37,531 bases of DNA, from positions 1 through 37,531 of the forward strand of contig CACJPC010000007.1 of assembly GCA_902595195.1 (NCBI GenBank), in the 5' to 3' direction. Positions 4,965-28,678 of the stretch are shown in pieces; position 1 is the first letter of the stretch, and every line of letters begins with the position of its first letter. The notes under the pieces were generated by a model, which did not search any database, was not told the DNA's origin, and was given only the letters and a program-made list of their open reading frames with translations. The position numbers and the translations under genes are program-made. The stretch is from an uncultured Candidatus Actinomarina sp. GTDB lineage: Bacteria > Actinomycetota > Acidimicrobiia > Actinomarinales > Actinomarinaceae.

Positions 4965-5529
4965 AAAATACTTTAAAAACGCATCAGAGAAATTTGCAAT
5001 GCCTTTTGTCCTTGTTTTAGCAAAATTTCAGATTAAACCTAATACTGTATCTATACTCGGTCTAATCATTGTGTTGTTAGGTTCATATTTTTTTTATGTA
5101 GATAACAAATTTCTTGGCATAATTTTAATTTTTTTAGGTAGTGCAGTTGATGGTCTTGATGGACCTTATGCAAGATATCAAAATTTAGTGAGTGAAAGGG
5201 GAGCAGTACTTGATTCTTTCATTGATAGATTGGGTGAATTATTTATATGGAGTGTTGTAGCTATAGGTTTCACTTCGAATGATATTGAGTTATTTATTGT
5301 TCTATCAATTTTAGTTGCATCAAATTTGATTCCTTATATTAGAGCTAAATCTGAAAGTTACGGTATTACAAACAAAGCTGGTATAACCGCAAGACCTGAA
5401 AGAGTAATATTTGCAGTAATATTCATGTTTTTTGATTTAGATTATGTATTTATGTATATATTTTCCTTATTATGTTGGATTACTGTATTTCAAAGAATTA
5501 AAATTTTAATAACCAACCTAGATAAATGA
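4957..5529 (+). CDS. CDP-alcohol phosphatidyltransferase (PgsA/PI-phosphate synthase-like)
   Basis: DGLDGPYARYQNLVSERGAVLDSFID matches the CDP-alcohol phosphotransferase signature DGx2DGx2ARx8Gx3Dx3D. Confidence 0.93.
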   Translation: MLEKYFKNASEKFAMPFVLVLAKFQIKPNTVSILGLIIVLLGSYFFYVDNKFLGIILIFLGSAVDGLDGPYARYQNLVSERGAVLDSFIDRLGELFIWSVVAIGFTSNDIELFIVLSILVASNLIPYIRAKSESYGITNKAGITARPERVIFAVIFMFFDLDYVFMYIFSLLCWITVFQRIKILITNLDK

Positions 5530-6371
5530 AATTTCAAATAATACGAATTCTTCACAACATGTTTAAAAAATTACCGCCAAATTTCATATATGTTATTTCA
5601 TATTTTATTGGACTCGTATATTTTATTTTTACTCCTTTTTCAAACATAAAACTTAAAAAGAGAAAAGATAGGATAGATAATTATTCAATATTCAAAGTTA
5701 AATTAAATTATGTAAGATACTGGCTTGAAACTATTTGGTTAACTAAAGAAGGTTATAAAGATTATATAGAACCAAAAGTAGAAATAATTAATGAAGATAT
5801 TGTTCGGAAGTTAAATAAAAATTACTCTTCATACATTATTGCACTTCCTCATCTTGGTAATTGGGAATTTGCAATTCCAATGGGTGAATTTCTAGATTTA
5901 AATTTAGTTGCTGTTGCTGAACCTTTAGATGATGAAAAGATTTTACATTGGTTTACTGAATTAAGAGAAGATCTTGGATGTAAAATAATTTTAGGTGGTA
6001 AAGGTCAAAATACTTTTGAACGAGTAAAAGAATTTCTTAAAAACGGCCATCACGTGTGCTTGTTATCAGAACGTCACATTGGTAAAAGTGGTGTAGGAGT
6101 TGAATTCTTCAATCAGATGGCAGCATTTCCAAAAGGGCCGGTATCTCTTTCGCTGGATACACAATTGCCTATTGTTCCTGCAGCTTTTATAAAGAATGGT
6201 AATAAATATCAATTACATTTTGGGAAACCTTTTATAGTACCTTATTTTGATAATCAAGCTCAAAGCATTCAACACGGACTTAAAGTTTTAAGTAAATCAT
6301 TAGAAAATTTAATAAAGCTCGATCCTAATCAGTGGCATTCTATCCAACCAGTATGGACTAGTGAATATTAA
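5526..6371 (+). CDS. LpxL/HtrB-family acyltransferase, probably PIM acyltransferase (PatA-like)
   Basis: LPHLGNWEFA (Hx4E motif); located between the CDP-alcohol transferase and the PimA-like GT4 as in Actinobacteria. Confidence 0.85.
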   Translation: MKFQIIRILHNMFKKLPPNFIYVISYFIGLVYFIFTPFSNIKLKKRKDRIDNYSIFKVKLNYVRYWLETIWLTKEGYKDYIEPKVEIINEDIVRKLNKNYSSYIIALPHLGNWEFAIPMGEFLDLNLVAVAEPLDDEKILHWFTELREDLGCKIILGGKGQNTFERVKEFLKNGHHVCLLSERHIGKSGVGVEFFNQMAAFPKGPVSLSLDTQLPIVPAAFIKNGNKYQLHFGKPFIVPYFDNQAQSIQHGLKVLSKSLENLIKLDPNQWHSIQPVWTSEY

Positions 6372-7347
6372 CCTCTTATTTTTAACACCGTACAATCTAT
6401 TAAATTATGGGGGAGTTCAACATCAAATAAATTTAATGAACGATTACATAAGAAAAACTTCAAACATAGAAAGTAAAATTGCTGGACCAAACTCTAAAGA
6501 TTATGATTTAGGTAGAGTTTTAAATATTCCTTTTAATAACTCAGTTGCATCAATATCTTTATTTCCAGATAGAAAAATACTCTTAAAAGCTATTGAGTGG
6601 TCAGATGTAGTACATATACACGAACCATTTATACCATTAATTTTTTGGAAATTACCAAAGAACAAAAAATATATATTTACTCATCATGCAAATTTAAATA
6701 AACTTTATACATTTTTCATGAGCATTATATACAAAATTGTAAAAATTAAAGGGATAAGTGTTTATGTTAGCGAATCAGCATTATCAAATGCTAAAACATT
6801 AAATAAACAACCAATCTTGATTCCTAATATGATAGAAATTAATAAAAATATAAAATTTAACAACACAAAAAAATTTTTATTTGTTGGACGCAATGAAAAA
6901 AGAAAAAATTTTAACTACTTTAATTTATTATCAAAAGAAAAATCATTTCAAAATTATGAATTTGAAGCAGTTACGAATGAAAATATTGAAAATTTTAATG
7001 GCGTTATCTATCTAAAACCTAATGATGAGGAGAAAAATGTTATTTTCAAAAACTCTTCTATATATTTGGCACTAAACACAAAAAATGAAAGTTTTGGAAT
7101 TACTCTAATTGAAGCAATAAACTCAGGGAATATTGTCATATCAAGCGATCTAGTTGCATTTAAAGATGTCTTAGAAGAGTCAGGTATTTATTATGAACGA
7201 AATTCTTATAAATCATTGGTAAATTTATTAACAAATACATTAAAAAGTGATTTAGATTTTATATGGGAAAAACAATATGAATGTATACAAAAATATGATA
7301 TTGAAAAAAATATGGAGCATTACGTTTTATTGTATTCAAACAATTGA
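6361..7347 (+). CDS. GT4 glycosyltransferase, PimA-like
   Basis: GTG start; N-terminal GGVQHQI, VVHIHEPFIPL and C-terminal NESFGITLIEAINSGN motifs; gene context. Confidence 0.82.
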   Translation: MNINLLFLTPYNLLNYGGVQHQINLMNDYIRKTSNIESKIAGPNSKDYDLGRVLNIPFNNSVASISLFPDRKILLKAIEWSDVVHIHEPFIPLIFWKLPKNKKYIFTHHANLNKLYTFFMSIIYKIVKIKGISVYVSESALSNAKTLNKQPILIPNMIEINKNIKFNNTKKFLFVGRNEKRKNFNYFNLLSKEKSFQNYEFEAVTNENIENFNGVIYLKPNDEEKNVIFKNSSIYLALNTKNESFGITLIEAINSGNIVISSDLVAFKDVLEESGIYYERNSYKSLVNLLTNTLKSDLDFIWEKQYECIQKYDIEKNMEHYVLLYSNN

Positions 7348-8247: not shown

Positions 8248-8829
8248 TTGAAAGTAGGGATACTTTCTTTACAAGGTAGTTTCTTTGATCATCAAAAAAG
8301 TTTAGATCTTGTTTCTTTAGAGTCATTATTAATAAAAACACCTGAAGATTTAGATAAAGTAGATGGAATTATACTTCCAGGTGGGGAATCTACAGCTATG
8401 TCGAAAATATCATCATATAATAATTTGTATAAAAAGTTAGATACAAAAATAAAACAAGGATTGCCAACCCTTAGTACTTGCGCAGGAACGATAATTCTTG
8501 CAAAATCAGTTATTGACGGAGATACTCATATCCCGAATATTGATATAGAAATTCAAAGAAATGCATATGGAAGACAAAATGAATCATTTGAAGCAGATGT
8601 AAAATTTTTAAATAATAATGACATATATTGTTTTATACGTGCTCCAAAAATTATAAGAACGTTAAATAATGATGTTAAAGTTATTGCTACACAGATTGAA
8701 GATATTGTTGGTGTTTCACAAAACAATATAGTCTCACTTACATACCATCCAGAATTGACAAATGATAACTATTATCTCGAATGGTTGCTTGCTTTTATGA
8801 AAGAAGGAAAATATGTCGGGTCATTCTAA
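8248..8829 (+). CDS. pdxT: Pyridoxal 5'-phosphate synthase glutaminase PdxT
   Basis: TTG start directly after the pdxS stop; LPGGESTAMSK, STCAGTIILA and YHPEL catalytic motifs. Confidence 0.96.
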   Translation: MKVGILSLQGSFFDHQKSLDLVSLESLLIKTPEDLDKVDGIILPGGESTAMSKISSYNNLYKKLDTKIKQGLPTLSTCAGTIILAKSVIDGDTHIPNIDIEIQRNAYGRQNESFEADVKFLNNNDIYCFIRAPKIIRTLNNDVKVIATQIEDIVGVSQNNIVSLTYHPELTNDNYYLEWLLAFMKEGKYVGSF

Positions 8830-9556
8830 ATGGTCTACCATAAAGCGAAAAAAAGGAGCTAACGATGCTAAAAGAGGACAATTATTCGCAAAATTAGTTA
8901 AAGCTATAGAAATTGCTGCACGTAATGGAGGCACTGACCCAGCAAATAACGCATCACTGTATCAAGCTATACAAAAAGCAAAATCTAATTCAGTACCTAA
9001 TGAAAATATAGAACGAGCTTTAAAACGTGTTGATGGAAATTTAGAAACTGGAGAAATATTCGAATTATCATACGAAGGATACGCACCACATGGTGTTGCT
9101 CTATTAATTAGTTGTCTTACTGATAATAAAAATCGAACTTCATCTGATGTAAAAGCTACTCTTACTAAACATGGTGGCTCGATGGGTACGCCGGGTAGTG
9201 TTAATTACTTATTTGAAAGAAAAGCTGTATTTCAATTTGATAAATATAACGATGAATTAATCGATTTAGCTTTAAACTCTGATTGTTTAGATATTCTAGA
9301 AAGTAATCAATCAGTAACGTTTGAATTCCCACCATCTGATTTTAAGAATATGAATGAAAAATTTAATAACAATTCGTTTGTTCCATCAAATGCTGAAATT
9401 GCTCAGATTCCGAATGTCGGTGTAGTCATTGATATGGAAAAATTCAAGTCAGTATCAAAATTGATTAGTGCATTAGAAGACCTTGATGACGTCCAAGATG
9501 TGTATGCAAATTTTGATATTGAAGAAAAAGAGTTAGAAGCGTTACTTTCTGAATAA
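8813..9556 (+). CDS. yebC: YebC/PmpR-family regulatory protein
   Basis: MSGHSKWSTIKRKKGANDAKRGQLFAKL and YEGYAPHGVALL motifs. Confidence 0.97.
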   Translation: MSGHSKWSTIKRKKGANDAKRGQLFAKLVKAIEIAARNGGTDPANNASLYQAIQKAKSNSVPNENIERALKRVDGNLETGEIFELSYEGYAPHGVALLISCLTDNKNRTSSDVKATLTKHGGSMGTPGSVNYLFERKAVFQFDKYNDELIDLALNSDCLDILESNQSVTFEFPPSDFKNMNEKFNNNSFVPSNAEIAQIPNVGVVIDMEKFKSVSKLISALEDLDDVQDVYANFDIEEKELEALLSE

Positions 9557-9574
9557 AAAAATTAAAATAAATAC

Positions 9575-9931
9575 ATGGTAAATAAGGCAAAAAAACAGGG
9601 AACTACGTACGAAACTAATATAGTAAATAGATTGAATAAAGAAGTAGATTTTAAAGCACAAAGATTTGCTGAAGGCGGATCAAAAGATCTAGGTGATATA
9701 CAACTATTTGTTAAAAACGAAGAGTACTTTCTTGAAGCTAAATCAAGACAAAATTTAAATATTCACCAGTCTTTAGAGAAAGCGATTGAAAAATCAGGTG
9801 ATAAAAATACTGTACTGTTTTGGAAAAAATTAAAAAGAAAACAAGGAAATTCTAGACGTACAAATGACGGCATGCCTGAAGTTGTGTCCATGTCTTACGA
9901 TTTGTTTATTAAATTATTGAATAATAAGTAA
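9575..9931 (+). CDS. Hjc/actinophage-type Holliday junction resolvase-like PD-(D/E)XK nuclease
   Basis: 118 aa; helix KKQGTTYETNIVNRLN, then GGSKDLGD(41)IQLF...YFLE(54)AK(56)S: E-x(n)-D-x(n)-ExK pattern; resembles remembered Hjc and actinophage resolvase-like proteins. Confidence 0.72.
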   Translation: MVNKAKKQGTTYETNIVNRLNKEVDFKAQRFAEGGSKDLGDIQLFVKNEEYFLEAKSRQNLNIHQSLEKAIEKSGDKNTVLFWKKLKRKQGNSRRTNDGMPEVVSMSYDLFIKLLNNK

Positions 9932-10920
9932 TGATTAAAAGTAGTTTATTTAACTACGATTTACCTAAATCATCTATAAATCAAATACCTTATCAAAATC
10001 CTTTAGATTCGAAATTACTTATTGCTGAGAGTAAAAAAATTATTTACTTTAAGGATTTGGCACAACATGTTGAAAAAGAATCTTTGTTTATATTTAATAA
10101 ATCAACTGTACAAAAAGTGAGAATCCTAACAGAAAAAAAATCAGGCGGTTCTATTGAAATATTTATTATTAAAAAAATTAATGATCGTAAAGCACAATGT
10201 TTATTAAAGTCCTCTGATAAAAAACTTATGAATAAGCAATATCAAACAGACATAGTAAATTTTAAAATAACTGATATTGACGATGGCTCTTTTGTATGTT
10301 TATTTGATAAAAATATTGACGATTTAATAAATAATTTCGGTGTATTACCTTTACCACCTTATATTGAAGACAGCCCTGACAAGAGAGAGTTCTATAATAA
10401 TGAATTTTCTGATCAAGGATTTTCTGTAGCAGCACCTACTGCAGGATTGCATTTTACTAATAAACTTATTAAAGAATTTAAAATAGAGAATATAGAAACA
10501 GCATTTATTAATTTAGATGTGAATATTGACACGTTTAAACCAATAAAAAATGTAAATTTAAATGATCATAAAATTCACAATGAATATTACAACATAGAAG
10601 ATAACGAATTTAATAAAATATTAAGTTATAAAAACTCCAATCGAAGTATTTACTGTATAGGGACAACTACCCTTAGGGCTATTGAAACAGCGTATATAAC
10701 AAAGGAGCTTAGAGGCAAAACAGATTTATTTATTCTTCCTGACACAAAAATTAATGTCCCAAATTATTTAATTACTAATTTTCATGCGCCTATGAGCTCA
10801 CTACTTTCAATTGTTCAAAATGTGTATGGAGATAATTGGAAAGAGCTGTACAAATACGCTATTGATCAAGGTTTAAAATTTTTAAGTTTTGGGGATGCAG
10901 TATTATTTGAATATAAATGA
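9931..10920 (+). CDS. queA: S-adenosylmethionine:tRNA ribosyltransferase-isomerase
   Basis: AAPTAGLHFT, TTTLRAIET and TNFHAPMSSLLSIV motifs; next to tgt. Confidence 0.96.
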   Translation: MIKSSLFNYDLPKSSINQIPYQNPLDSKLLIAESKKIIYFKDLAQHVEKESLFIFNKSTVQKVRILTEKKSGGSIEIFIIKKINDRKAQCLLKSSDKKLMNKQYQTDIVNFKITDIDDGSFVCLFDKNIDDLINNFGVLPLPPYIEDSPDKREFYNNEFSDQGFSVAAPTAGLHFTNKLIKEFKIENIETAFINLDVNIDTFKPIKNVNLNDHKIHNEYYNIEDNEFNKILSYKNSNRSIYCIGTTTLRAIETAYITKELRGKTDLFILPDTKINVPNYLITNFHAPMSSLLSIVQNVYGDNWKELYKYAIDQGLKFLSFGDAVLFEYK

Positions 10921-12002
10921 ATAATATTAAATTAGATTTGCTCGGAACTGATGGTAAAGCAAGAGTTAATAGAGTTAACTTAAACAATCATGAATTTTTA
11001 ACACCTATTTTTATGCCAGTGGCAACAAGAGGTTCGATTAAATCTCTTAATTTAGAAAACTTATCAGAAACCAATATTATTTTAGGCAATACATACCACC
11101 TCTACTTAAGACCAGGATTAGAAGTTATAAAAAAATTCAATGGATTACATGATTTTATGAATTGGAAAAAATTAATTCTTACAGATTCTGGTGGATTTCA
11201 GGGTTGGTCCATACCTAACACACAAACAGATGAAGGAATTTTATTTAAAAATGTATATGATGGTTCTAAATTTCTTATGACTCCTGAGTTGTCAATGGAA
11301 ATTCAAGAATCATTAAATAGTGATATTGCAATGATATTGGACCACTTAATAGACATAGATTCATCTAAAGAGCTACAAAAAAATGCTATAGATAAAACTA
11401 ATACTTGGGCAAGAAATGCTAGAAATGTTCATCAAAATAGTACTCAATCTTTGTTTGGCATTGTTCAAGGAGGTAAGTACAAAGAATTAAGGGAAATGTC
11501 TGCAAAGAATATGTTGGATTTAGATTTTAATGGATACGCAATTGGAGGTTTAGCTATAGGTGAAACCTCATCAGAAAGAAAAGAGATCGTTTCTTTCACT
11601 ACTGATATACTACCTTCAGATAAATTAAGATATGTTATGGGGGTTGGAGATATAAAAAGTCTTTTAGATCTAATTGAGCTAGGAATCGATATGTTTGATT
11701 GTGTATGGCCATCAAGAATTGCACGTCATGGAAAAATTATTAACAGAGCCGGATTTTTTAATCTAAAGAATAACAAATATAAAGATTTGAAAGAACCATT
11801 AGTTATTGGATGTAAATGTTACACGTGTTTAAATTATTCAACCTCTTACATGAGACATTTGCTAATTAATGAACCTACATCTTCATGGCAATTTTTAACT
11901 TTACACAATATATTTCAGACAGAAAATATTGTTAACGAAGTCAGAGAAAGTATATTAAACTCAGATTTTGATAATTATAAAGAAAGACTTTTAAATGAAT
12001 GA
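10917..12002 (+). CDS. tgt: tRNA-guanine transglycosylase
   Basis: FMPVATRGSIKSL, LTDSGGFQ, YAIGGLAIGE and zinc-site CKCYTC motifs. Confidence 0.96.
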   Translation: MNNIKLDLLGTDGKARVNRVNLNNHEFLTPIFMPVATRGSIKSLNLENLSETNIILGNTYHLYLRPGLEVIKKFNGLHDFMNWKKLILTDSGGFQGWSIPNTQTDEGILFKNVYDGSKFLMTPELSMEIQESLNSDIAMILDHLIDIDSSKELQKNAIDKTNTWARNARNVHQNSTQSLFGIVQGGKYKELREMSAKNMLDLDFNGYAIGGLAIGETSSERKEIVSFTTDILPSDKLRYVMGVGDIKSLLDLIELGIDMFDCVWPSRIARHGKIINRAGFFNLKNNKYKDLKEPLVIGCKCYTCLNYSTSYMRHLLINEPTSSWQFLTLHNIFQTENIVNEVRESILNSDFDNYKERLLNE

Positions 12003-12243
12003 GATAGTTACTTTACTACCATTAATAACTGTTTTTGTAATTTTTTACCTCATACTATATTTACCCCAGAGACGAAGACAAAAAAAGCATAAACAGTACG
12101 TTGAAGCTTTAAAAATCGGCGATGATGTAATTACAGATTCAGGTATATACGGTCGTGTAGTAAATATAAAAGAAGAAACTGTTACATTAGTTATTAAAAA
12201 AGGGGAAATAGAAATACTTAAGACCAAGATTCTTTTTAAATAA
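11995..12243 (+). CDS. yajC: Preprotein translocase subunit YajC
   Basis: 82 aa; one TM segment, LPQRRRQKKH and GDDVITDSGIYGRV motifs; upstream of secD. Confidence 0.93.
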   Translation: MNEIVTLLPLITVFVIFYLILYLPQRRRQKKHKQYVEALKIGDDVITDSGIYGRVVNIKEETVTLVIKKGEIEILKTKILFK

Positions 12244-12245
12244 TT

Positions 12246-13691
12246 ATGAAATCATTTGTAAAACTATTATTACTACCAATTATTTCTATAGCTTTATTCT
12301 TTTTTGTTTACGTTAATGATATTCAACCAAAACTTGGTTTAGATTTACAGGGTGGAGTTTCAGTAATATTGACTGCTGAAGAAGGTACAGATCCAGAATT
12401 AATTGAACAAGCAGTTGAAATCATGAGAACTAGAATTTCTGCCTTTGGAGAAGTTCAAGAACCTGAAATATCAATTAGTGGTGAAAACTCTGTTTTAGTT
12501 CAACTACCTGGTCTAACCGACCAAGAAAAAGCTATAGAAGCTGTTGGAACAACTGGTCTTCTAACATTTAGACCAGTATTAAACTCGTCTCTTAATTTAG
12601 GATATTCTCCAGCCCTAACAATAACTCCAAATGAGGATGATCCAGATAACCCGACAGTAACAGCACCACCTGGAGTTGATGAATTAACAGGACTTTCGAT
12701 TGACGACAATCCAGATACTGAATCTTATTTACTTTCCTTATCTGGAGGATTTCCAGTTATATATCATTTAGGTCCTGCCGAACTTACAGGAAATGATATT
12801 GAGGATGCTTTAGCTGTCTACCCCCAAAATGAATGGATTGTTCAATTAGTTTTAAAAGATACTTCTGAACAAAAGTTTACTGATTTAACAAAGAAATTAG
12901 CTAAATTAATGGGTGAGCAAAGACGTTTAGCTATTGTATTGGATGGTCAAGTAATATCCGCTCCAGGTATTGCAATGGATGTAAATCCTGAAATTGGTAT
13001 AACAGGCGGAACAGCTGCAATTTCAATGGGAAATACTGACCAAGGAGAATCTGCAAATAATCTGGCAGTTATTTTAAGATATGGTGCACTACCTGTTGCT
13101 TTTGAAAGATCATCTATACAAAAGGTTTCTGCTACATTAGGTGAAAACACTCTTTCGCTTGGTTTACAGGCTGGATTTGTTGGACTTATTATTGTTAGTC
13201 TGTTCTTACTCTTTTATTACCGATTATCTGGAATAATCGCAATTTTAGGTCTAGCTTCATTTGGTGCATTGTTTTATTCTGTTATCGCATTATTGGGTGA
13301 ATATCAAGGTTATACACTAACTTTAGCTGGTATAGCTGGAGTAATAGTTTCAATAGGTTTGACTGCTGACTCGTATATAGTTATTTTCGAAAAATTAAAG
13401 GATGAATTAAAAGTTGGTAGATCATTCAACTTTGCTGCTGAAAAAGCAGTTACTGAAGCATGGAATACAATATTAGTAGCTGATTTTGTTTCAATAATTG
13501 CATCAATCATTTTATATGTATTGGCAATCGGACCTATTAGAGGTTTTGCACTAACTCTTGGACTTGCAACTGTTTTCGATTTGTTTTATACAAGATTATT
13601 CATTAGAAATGCAGTACCAATATTTGGAAATATTACTGATAACCCTCGAGGTTATTTCCCACTAAAAAGAAAAGATATTGAAAATGTTTAA
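12246..13691 (+). CDS. secD: Protein translocase subunit SecD
   Basis: GLDLQGGVSVIL, GEVQEPEI, LGLQAGFVGLIIV motifs. Confidence 0.97.
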   Translation: MKSFVKLLLLPIISIALFFFVYVNDIQPKLGLDLQGGVSVILTAEEGTDPELIEQAVEIMRTRISAFGEVQEPEISISGENSVLVQLPGLTDQEKAIEAVGTTGLLTFRPVLNSSLNLGYSPALTITPNEDDPDNPTVTAPPGVDELTGLSIDDNPDTESYLLSLSGGFPVIYHLGPAELTGNDIEDALAVYPQNEWIVQLVLKDTSEQKFTDLTKKLAKLMGEQRRLAIVLDGQVISAPGIAMDVNPEIGITGGTAAISMGNTDQGESANNLAVILRYGALPVAFERSSIQKVSATLGENTLSLGLQAGFVGLIIVSLFLLFYYRLSGIIAILGLASFGALFYSVIALLGEYQGYTLTLAGIAGVIVSIGLTADSYIVIFEKLKDELKVGRSFNFAAEKAVTEAWNTILVADFVSIIASIILYVLAIGPIRGFALTLGLATVFDLFYTRLFIRNAVPIFGNITDNPRGYFPLKRKDIENV

Positions 13692-14589
13692 AAGATTATT
13701 TTTAGGTAATACAAATATTGATTTTCAAAAGATAGGGAGTCGCTTCTATAAAATATTCATTGTTGAACTAATAATATTCTTAGCAATACTTGGGGCATCT
13801 CTTACCGGAATATTTAATTTAAATCTTTCAGTTGATTTTACAGGTGGAACAACATATCAGCTTGACGCGTTATATACAGATAATGATATAGATGATGTTT
13901 TAAACAATACAATACTTCCAGTATCAAGGTATCAAACTTTCGATAATTCCAATACAATTATTTTTAGAGCTATTGAATCTACACAAGAACGAGAAACAGA
14001 GCTACTAAATTATCTCTCAAATAAGTTTGATGTAGAAAAAAATGAAATAGAATTTCAAAGAGTGGGTCCAACATTCGGAGAAGAAATAACGAATAAAGGC
14101 ATTAGGGCTCTTGTTATATTTCTAACAATTATTGCATTATTAATCTCATTTAGATATGAATATAGATTCTCATTAATTGCTTTGACAGCATTAATGCATG
14201 ATTTACTACTTACATTTTCTGTTTATGTTGTTTTAGGGCTAGAAATTACACCATCTACAATTATTGCTTTACTAACAATTTTAGGTTATTCCTTATATGA
14301 CACAGTTATACTTTTCGATAAATTAAAAGACTCACAGAAATCTTTTAAGAGAGATGCACTCACTGGTGAAATTTTGAACAAAACATTTAATGAAGTTTTG
14401 ATGAGAAGCATAAATACTTCTTTTACCTCTGCAATACCTATTATTTCCATAATTTTTATTGGAAACTATTTAGGTATAGAGGGCAATCTATCAGATTTTG
14501 CAATTCCTTTATTAATTGGGATATTATCTGGTACATATAGTTCGATATTTGTTACAGTACCATTTTTATCAAAAATAATTAAAACTTAA
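13678..14589 (+). CDS. secF: Protein translocase subunit SecF
   Basis: LSVDFTGGTTYQL and GYSLYDTVILFDKL motifs; overlaps secD. Confidence 0.97.
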   Translation: MKMFKRLFLGNTNIDFQKIGSRFYKIFIVELIIFLAILGASLTGIFNLNLSVDFTGGTTYQLDALYTDNDIDDVLNNTILPVSRYQTFDNSNTIIFRAIESTQERETELLNYLSNKFDVEKNEIEFQRVGPTFGEEITNKGIRALVIFLTIIALLISFRYEYRFSLIALTALMHDLLLTFSVYVVLGLEITPSTIIALLTILGYSLYDTVILFDKLKDSQKSFKRDALTGEILNKTFNEVLMRSINTSFTSAIPIISIIFIGNYLGIEGNLSDFAIPLLIGILSGTYSSIFVTVPFLSKIIKT

Positions 14590-22775: not shown

Positions 22776-23156
22776 GTGAATAATTTATTATCAATAGATT
22801 TTGGCGAACGTTATATGGGATTTGCTATAAGAACTGTTAAAACACAGATACCTATACCAATAGAAGTCGTAGACATTAAAAAAGATAACATTGCAAACAA
22901 AATATCTACATTCGTCGATTCCTATGATATAAATGAATTTATTATTGGATACCCATTAGGTATGAATCTTTCTGAAAATAGAATGACTAATAATGTTGAT
23001 AATTTTATTGAAGAAGAATTAAAAAAATATAATTTACCAATTTCAAAAATAGATGAAAGATTTACTTCTGAATTAATCAAAAAAAGTAAAAAAGACAGAG
23101 TTGATGATTTGTCAGCACTAGAGATATTGGAAACTTATATTAAAAAAAATGATTAA
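22776..23156 (+). CDS. ruvX: YqgF/RuvX-family RNase H-like nuclease
   Basis: GTG start; LLSIDFGERYMGFAI, FIIGYPLGMN and IDERFTS...VDDLSALEILETYI; located between alaS and mltG. Confidence 0.9.
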   Translation: MNNLLSIDFGERYMGFAIRTVKTQIPIPIEVVDIKKDNIANKISTFVDSYDINEFIIGYPLGMNLSENRMTNNVDNFIEEELKKYNLPISKIDERFTSELIKKSKKDRVDDLSALEILETYIKKND

Positions 23157-27334: not shown

Positions 27335-28678
27335 ATGTTTGCTGATGTAGAAGTAATTTCAAATAATACATACGGTTACAACCAATTTACTTATTCTATT
27401 CCTCAAAAGTTTCAGAAAAAATTAAGTATTGGAACTATCGTGAAAGTTGAATTTAGAAATAAGATTGTCGACGCATTAGTTGTTAATTTGAAATCAAAAA
27501 CTGATATTAAAAATTCAAAAAATATTTTAAAAGTTTCAAATCGTACACTTAAAAATGAACAGGACCTTTATTGCAAATATATAGCACTTTCTAACAGACT
27601 TAATTGTGGAATATTATTACATAACATAATTGATTTAGAAATTTTAAGACAACAAAATATATTAAAAACAAAATCTGTTTCAAATATAAATTTTCAAGAG
27701 TTTAATAATTTAAAGTTTGAAAATGATAATGTTTTTTTTGTATCTTCTATTAAACAGGCGAATGAACTATCAAAAGAACTAAAAAATAAGCTAAAGATTG
27801 ACTTCTATCAAAAATTTGGAGGGAAAGATGAACTTATCAATGTATTAAACAACAAAAAATACAGAAATATAATAATTCTTTCTAATAATTTTGAAAAAGT
27901 AATATTAAACGATCATACTAATTATTTTTTTTATGACAGTAATTCTCCCGCTTATAAATTACCGAAATTAAATAATCTGAACATTGTCGAATCATCTTAT
28001 CTGAAAAATCATATATTTGGAGGTACGTTTATTTATATAAATGAATTTCCTAATTTGGAATTCAACGATTTTTATAAATTTAATATTCAAGAAATAGATT
28101 ATGGAATTGAATACTATTTTTCTAATAATTTAAAAGATAATTTAGAGTTACTTAATCATAAATATCCAAATAAAGTTTTCAATGTATATTCAAAAGAAAC
28201 ATTTGAAAAAAATAAAAATATTTCACAACATGATGATATAAATAGTAAGGAGGTGAATACAGTTATTATAAATAATCCAACTATATCTTCGAAAGGTCTA
28301 CTTAATTCATATAAATTAATATCCCTTCTAAGAACATTAAACTTTTGCATTAAAAACAATTTAAAAATCATAATATTTAATAATAAAAAATTAAATATAG
28401 AAAGTTCATTAAATAGCTTATCTTTAACTAAATGGGCAAACAAGGAGTTAGAAACAAGATTAAAGTATGGTCCAAACAAGTTGTTAAAAGTGTTTCAATT
28501 TGAGTTACAATACAAACTTGAAGATAGTGATGAATTGCTTCTTGGTCCTATAAAAACTGAAAACGGTTTCAAGTATGAAGTTCAGATAAGATTGTCTAAA
28601 GATGTAAATTACATAAATTTTATAAATCTATTTAAAAGTCTTAATAAAATTGAATTAACAAGAGTAAGGTATATTTAA
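27335..28678 (+). CDS. priA: Degenerate PriA-like protein (primosomal protein N' family, helicase motifs not seen)
   Basis: N-terminal 3'-binding-domain-like segment (FTYSIPQKFQKKLSIGTIVKVEFRNKIVDALVV), C-terminal LLGPI...VQIRLSK, coaBC/def context; no Walker A and no CxxC pairs. Confidence 0.7.
   Translation: MFADVEVISNNTYGYNQFTYSIPQKFQKKLSIGTIVKVEFRNKIVDALVVNLKSKTDIKNSKNILKVSNRTLKNEQDLYCKYIALSNRLNCGILLHNIIDLEILRQQNILKTKSVSNINFQEFNNLKFENDNVFFVSSIKQANELSKELKNKLKIDFYQKFGGKDELINVLNNKKYRNIIILSNNFEKVILNDHTNYFFYDSNSPAYKLPKLNNLNIVESSYLKNHIFGGTFIYINEFPNLEFNDFYKFNIQEIDYGIEYYFSNNLKDNLELLNHKYPNKVFNVYSKETFEKNKNISQHDDINSKEVNTVIINNPTISSKGLLNSYKLISLLRTLNFCIKNNLKIIIFNNKKLNIESSLNSLSLTKWANKELETRLKYGPNKLLKVFQFELQYKLEDSDELLLGPIKTENGFKYEVQIRLSKDVNYINFINLFKSLNKIELTRVRYI

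Follow-up and report, generated by a model that had tools for sequence, protein, structure and literature searches.

RuvAB and the resolvases RuvC or RecU are nearly ubiquitous in bacteria and belong to the bacterial recombination genes with the widest distribution and the least transfer (PMC1193525). The non-orthologous replacement of RuvC is already known. An example of such a substitution by a PD-(D/E)XK enzyme is RecU, which takes the place of RuvC in Firmicutes and Mollicutes, and Rocha et al. proposed that prophage resolvases might substitute as well (PMC1193525). RusA, encoded by an Escherichia coli prophage, is phage-derived and can bypass RuvABC together with RecG (PMC3403352). Hjc-type enzymes are described in Archaea (Sulfolobus 1hh1, Archaeoglobus 2wcw, Pyrococcus 1gef) and in phages, where Hjc_15-6 of Thermus phage Tth15-6 (7bgs) has the catalytic set E10-D40-E53-K55 and demonstrated junction cleavage (PMC8805305). 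PHROG 244 is a Holliday-junction resolvase family of about 110–130 aa, with members in Microbacterium, Arthrobacter, Curtobacterium and Streptomyces phages.

The locus considered here encodes a 118-aa protein which resembles each of these systems in part. With the PHROG 244 phage proteins, including those of three viral contigs (L098, L100, L101), it shares the size, the N-terminal K-x-x-G-T-x-x-E, the (G)D and (E/Q)xK motifs and the C-terminal strand-helix; the phage genes, however, adjoin primase/helicase or replication-initiation genes, whereas the Actinomarina gene belongs to the chromosomal core and lies in the ruv position. The archaeal Hjc proteins are similar in the E-D-ExK set, size and modelled core topology, but the identity is only about 20%, the Actinomarina host is bacterial and the single sequences fall under the Pfam Hjc detection level. 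Hjc_15-6 is likewise a phage Hjc-like enzyme with equivalent catalytic residues, but it carries an SD-EVK motif, has 163 aa and is an enzyme of a thermophilic phage rather than a host gene. The lineages with RecU keep RuvAB and rarely have RecU in the ruv locus, in contrast to Actinomarina, where RuvAB is missing and the gene sits in the locus itself. RusA offers the parallel of phage origin but belongs to a different family. The exchange of ruvCAB for an Hjc-like phage gene in Actinomarina is well supported; what is unusual in it is the removal of RuvAB along with RuvC and the occupation of the same locus. The literature search, which had subscription papers outside its reach and leaves priority uncertain, returned no publication linking Actinomarina with ruvC or Actinomarinales with the Holliday junction; the Actinomarinales genome paper (PMC7771536) mentions neither ruv, resolvase nor Holliday, and the paper on the sister order mentions neither ruv nor resolvase.

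The locus of the predicted resolvase and its conservation

The window is the whole stretch of 37,531 nucleotides that was analysed, and its source is Candidatus Actinomarina (OCS155, Acidimicrobiia), with a genome of 0.93 Mb that is 79% complete. The genes follow in the order pgsA, acyltransferase, glycosyltransferase, pdxS, pdxT, yebC, the 118-aa open reading frame, queA, tgt, yajC, secD, secF and rel, of which the acyltransferase, glycosyltransferase, PdxS, PdxT, YebC, QueA, Tgt and YajC were named by Pfam (Table 1). The protein has a mass of 13.7 kDa and a pI of 9.7, and the TAA stop of its gene shares one base with the ATG of queA. Further along the window, 27335–28678 encodes a PriA-like protein (447 aa) whose 3′-DNA-binding domain alone is recognised, a helicase domain finding no match; it is read as a degenerate actinobacterial-type PriA.

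Table 1. Positions of the features discussed (window coordinates, unless given as positions of the outgroup locus L067)
Feature	Position	Strand	Remarks
yebC	8813..9556	+	left neighbour; directly 5′ of ruvC in other Acidimicrobiia
spacer yebC/resolvase	9557..9574	+	18 bp; too short for ruv remnants
resolvase gene	9575..9931	+	118 aa, ATG...TAA; Hjc-like (PHROG 244) PD-(D/E)XK predicted Holliday-junction resolvase
queA	9931..10920	+	right neighbour; directly 3′ of ruvB in outgroup locus L067
tgt	10917..12002	+	synteny kept downstream
recombination tract	9560..14520	.	about 5 kb, holds resolvase through secF
yqgF/ruvX	22776..23156	+	Pfam RuvX 6e-24; sole other candidate resolvase-fold gene found in window
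L067 ruvC	about 5059-5514		locus positions
L067 ruvA	about 5544-6089		locus positions
L067 ruvB	about 6179-7087		locus positions

The original prediction placed the reading frame between yebC and queA, and the same order is found in all Actinomarina loci examined. A 118-aa protein with 78–97% identity is encoded at the same place in 29 more loci, and every Actinomarina locus with the gene and enough flanking sequence reads pdxS-pdxT-yebC-[gene]-queA-tgt-yajC-secD-secF-rel, with one copy each. Against the window copy, the protein averages 83% identity; of 11 genes compared, pdxS alone is better conserved, and yebC, queA, tgt, yajC, secD, secF and rel all have lower values. The dN/dS ratio of the window copy against two related loci (L005 and L006) is 0.017–0.020, and the residues E13, R30, D38, G40, D41, E54 and K56 are invariant among 18 Actinomarina sequences. 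By these measures the gene is real, belongs to the conserved core and is subject to strong purifying selection. The Actinomarina genomes are all incomplete single-amplified or metagenome-assembled genomes, 94% complete at best; the gene is present in 36 of 42, where 33.5 would be expected from the summed completeness, and the six genomes without it are 70–83% complete, so that it appears near-universal in the genus. The tree distances of the resolvase and of its neighbours are only moderately correlated (r 0.60–0.74), and for this reason no claim is made of strictly vertical inheritance free of allelic exchange.

Loss of ruvA, ruvB and ruvC

The absence of ruvCAB from the locus, which was already noted in the window, extends through the genus. 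The NCBIfam models were compared with 119 Acidimicrobiia genomes, comprising 27 Actinomarina and 92 others. RuvA and RuvB each scored over the cut-off in 90 of the 92 other Acidimicrobiia and RuvC, a resolvase of RNase-H fold (TIGR00228), was matched in 91, whereas none of the three was found in the 27 Actinomarina genomes; the Pfam model of RuvC (PF02075) was also without a match in all 42 available Actinomarina genomes. Incompleteness of the bins was rejected as the reason for the missing ruv genes, since about 30 loci are assembled without them and the probability that one core gene is absent by chance from all 42 genomes would be about 1e-31, given independence of the genomes. Some open frames of Actinomarina (e.g., of 518 and 622 aa) give weak RuvB matches of about 40 bits or less; these were rejected as other AAA+ ATPases, since they fall far short of the cut-off of 299 bits and neither RuvA nor RuvC is present.

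The comparison of gene order with related Acidimicrobiia shows ruvCAB where Actinomarina carries the 118-aa gene, in the order yebC-ruvC-ruvA-ruvB-queA. In the outgroup genome G022 (locus L067), the block from pgsA through yebC-queA-tgt-yajC-secD is collinear with the window, and ruvC-ruvA-ruvB fill exactly the gap between the end of yebC (4984) and the start of queA (7185). This gap holds about 2.2 kb of ruvCAB in the outgroup against a gene of 0.36 kb in Actinomarina. An intermediate genome with both ruvCAB and the resolvase gene, or with neither, was not found among the genomes searched.

Homologous recombination and the remaining resolvase candidates

A published population analysis places Candidatus Actinomarinales at the upper end of bacteria in the degree to which homologous recombination homogenises populations (PMC7771536), and the window itself bears a trace of this process. 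Within the tract listed in Table 1, the identity to the loci L005, L006 and L007 is about 68–87% per 250-bp bin and about 80% overall, whereas outside it is mostly 91–99% and usually 95% or more. The edges are sharp (9517–9606 and about 14,502–14,538), and the left one lies immediately ahead of the resolvase gene. None of the genomes sampled is the donor. Such a pattern identifies the segment as a tract of allelic replacement, and homologous recombination, as judged from the genomes, is active in Actinomarina. A junction resolvase is therefore to be expected in the genus, and the 118-aa protein is the only dedicated, although predicted, resolvase found in it.

The other genes of the pathway were surveyed in 29 Actinomarina genomes. 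RecG is matched in every one of them, mostly over the full length, and RecA is present in 27, while RecU (PF03838) was found in none and RusA (PF05866) in one, a bin with 5% contamination (G163). YqgF/RuvX, located in the window between alaS and an mltG-like gene, is kept in 23 of the 29 genomes and is the main alternative candidate, which the original prediction did not mention. It may be that YqgF took over resolution after the loss of ruvCAB, and that the 118-aa protein is an accessory nuclease cutting junctions or flaps. For genomes that lack RuvC and RecU, YqgF has been suggested to act as a fallback resolvase; against this, it occurs alongside RuvC or RecU in most bacteria and hence is no simple substitute (PMC1193525). 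Its scores in Actinomarina are modest, from just over the NCBIfam cut-off to below it (several lie below), and the protein is probably diverging fast. The 118-aa gene alone occupies the ruv position and is a newcomer to the lineage. The takeover by YqgF is held to be unlikely, if slightly less so than the other alternatives.

Identity of the 118-aa protein

The window protein matches PHROG 244 over residues 1–117 (E=1.2e-11), and the family matches 18 of 18 Actinomarina members (best E 4e-12). A profile built from host and phage sequences together reaches archaeal Hjc (1hh1, E=5e-6; 4tkk, 7e-6; also 2eo0 and 2wcz) and Hjc_15-6 of the Thermus phage (7bgs, E=0.005). The best Pfam match is PDDEXK_15 (E 3e-5), described as a "putative endonuclease" of the phage PDDEXK type, which stays under the cut-off. 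No match to the 118-aa protein was found in NCBIfam, nor was there any in Pfam to Hjc (PF01870), RusA (PF05866), RecU (PF03838) or VRR_NUC, although a VRR-NUC structure is a weak fold neighbour. One of the phage relatives comes close to PF01870, with 18.5 bits against a cut-off of 21.1. As the protein fails the Pfam Hjc model, it is termed Hjc-like and not an archaeal Hjc proper.

The AlphaFold model made from the mixed alignment (pLDDT 83.7, pTM 0.76) has E13 within helix 1, E54 and K56 within strand 3, and D41 where strand 2 begins (abutting the strand at 42–46). The first model, from Actinomarina sequences alone, was of low confidence (pLDDT 56), and Hjc ranked first in its search, which is taken as no more than a faint hint. 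For the mixed-alignment model, the Foldseek comparison with the PDB recovers the core topology of the restriction-endonuclease-like fold at TM 0.45–0.50, with no E < 1e-3; the restriction enzyme R.SwaI is at the top and Hjc follows from rank 3 onward (TM 0.45–0.47, best E 5e-3). In the search of viral structures, the best-named matches include phage Holliday-junction resolvases. The positions E13-D41-E54-K56 align with E10-D40-E53-K55 of Hjc_15-6, and among the phage family members D41 and K56 are invariant, while E54 is sometimes Q.

Sequence profiles and the structural model together identify the protein as an Hjc-like PD-(D/E)XK member of PHROG 244. The predicted likeness to the Holliday-junction resolvases of actinophages is borne out by these profile matches, and the core D41, E54, K56 proposed from the window was placed correctly, with E13 now added as the fourth residue. 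PHROG 244 itself is labelled "RusA-like", and many phage records inherit this label. On the same profile and model evidence it is a misnomer, the family being Hjc-like and RusA a separate one.

The fold alone could accommodate another function, as PD-(D/E)XK folds are functionally diverse, R.SwaI is the first structure in the PDB list and the only Pfam near-match is to a putative phage PDDEXK endonuclease. A nuclease of restriction, anti-phage defence or flap repair might thus have landed at a hotspot vacated by ruvCAB. The profile similarity is, however, specific to Hjc and the PHROG 244 resolvases; the core-gene spread, the dN/dS near 0.02 and the lack of sequence turnover are unlike those of defence genes, and neither a methyltransferase nor a partner gene adjoins the resolvase. 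The genus, moreover, recombines without RuvC or RecU, and with RusA in a single contaminated bin. This explanation is considered improbable and is placed after that of YqgF.

Phage relatives and probable origin of the gene

The family is broadly distributed among phages. Relatives of the PHROG 244 member from Microbacterium phage Caron occur in over 200 actinobacteriophage records, and in the records opened the gene lies beside or near a DNA primase/helicase. The closest proteins outside the genus come from the three IMG/VR viral contigs named above; they are 49–50% identical over the full length and have the C-terminal WKKxK(K/R)...R..DG segment of Actinomarina. These contigs were reached by a stepwise search through PHROG 244 members, first L098 and then L100 and L101, as the single window protein or the Actinomarina-only alignment found nothing among viral contigs. 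In the two contigs whose surroundings were examined, a replication-initiation gene (phrog_9474, E 2e-32 and 5e-41) is located two genes away. In the resolvase tree, the Actinomarina proteins form one group (support 91/92), which is joined with the three viral proteins (95/92); the remaining branches are long and poorly resolved. The predicted phage derivation agrees with this placement, in which the closest non-Actinomarina relatives are genes of viral contigs.

Among cellular genomes the gene is rare. It was found in the window genome alone among 296 Actinomycetota genomes, the 295 others being without it, and PHROG 244 was matched in 3 of 205 non-Actinomarina Acidimicrobiia genomes, once strongly and twice weakly. 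As the family is widespread in phages and restricted to one genus among the sampled hosts, it is simpler to suppose that the gene passed from phage to host, and it would have entered Actinomarina in this way. The candidate donor lineage among the phages is no closer to Actinomarina than 50% identity. A plasmid origin is unsupported, as the search of plasmid records returned no match to the resolvase.

Two further observations concern these relatives. In L098 (4383–4763) and L100 (1362–1808), a further small protein with an (F)EVKSGK motif comes after the resolvase; it matches no PHROG and nothing in Pfam over the cut-off, and is possibly another PD-(D/E)XK nuclease. Small phage-like contigs in two Actinomarina bins (L057 in G017:C9 and L045 in G163:C45) carry distant second relatives of the resolvase, and L057 also has a D5-type primase-like gene.

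The proposed replacement and its mechanism

The preferred reading, to which a probability of roughly 0.8 is assigned, is that the ancestor of the genus exchanged ruvCAB in situ for a phage Hjc-type resolvase, which is predicted to resolve junctions, probably assisted by RecG. The donor would have been a tailed phage, and its gene would have arrived between yebC and queA, within the ruv locus or adjoining it; ruvC, ruvA and ruvB would have been lost, so that a phage gene of 0.36 kb came to stand in place of about 2.2 kb. The enzyme would act as an Mg2+-dependent homodimer, in which two subunits bind the four-way junction and each cuts one strand at the metal site formed by E13, D41, E54 and K56, giving symmetric paired nicks. 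The branch migration formerly carried out by RuvAB would be driven by RecG, occur spontaneously, or both, as in the RecG-RusA pathway of E. coli. We infer the cleavage activity, the dimerisation, the RecG partnership and the direction and timing of the transfer, and the mechanism is drawn by analogy from the family. It is likely that the genus as a whole has at its ruv locus a minimal two-component system, a domesticated phage Hjc-type resolvase with RecG, and no RuvA, RuvB or RuvC.

The original prediction offered two courses, the takeover of resolution by a phage-derived enzyme with the loss of ruvCAB or the capture of the gene into the vacated site; the phage-type gene in the ruv site and the genus-wide loss both stand, and either order of replacement and loss would fit the genomes. 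That ruvCAB was lost first, with no dedicated resolvase needed, and that the nuclease was captured later for some other benefit and not as a functional replacement, would fit the result that no intermediate was found among the genomes searched, but it is the least probable of the explanations, as the strong homologous recombination in the genus means that junctions must be resolved and the gene is near-universal.

Implications of the proposed replacement

The replacement of ruvCAB by the phage resolvase would mean that the machinery for processing junctions can be exchanged as a unit, with three ruv genes giving way to one phage gene, in place and throughout a genus. It also suggests that phage resolvases can serve as functional donors to the housekeeping of their hosts. 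Actinomarina are tiny, very abundant, free-living ocean bacteria, and their 13.7-kDa enzyme would be easily made and assayed. The populations of the lineage rank at the top of the bacterial range for cohesion driven by recombination (PMC7771536), and the exchange would offer a natural experiment on the need for RuvAB. If the reading is true, the near-universal RuvABC would be exchangeable whole for one small phage protein.
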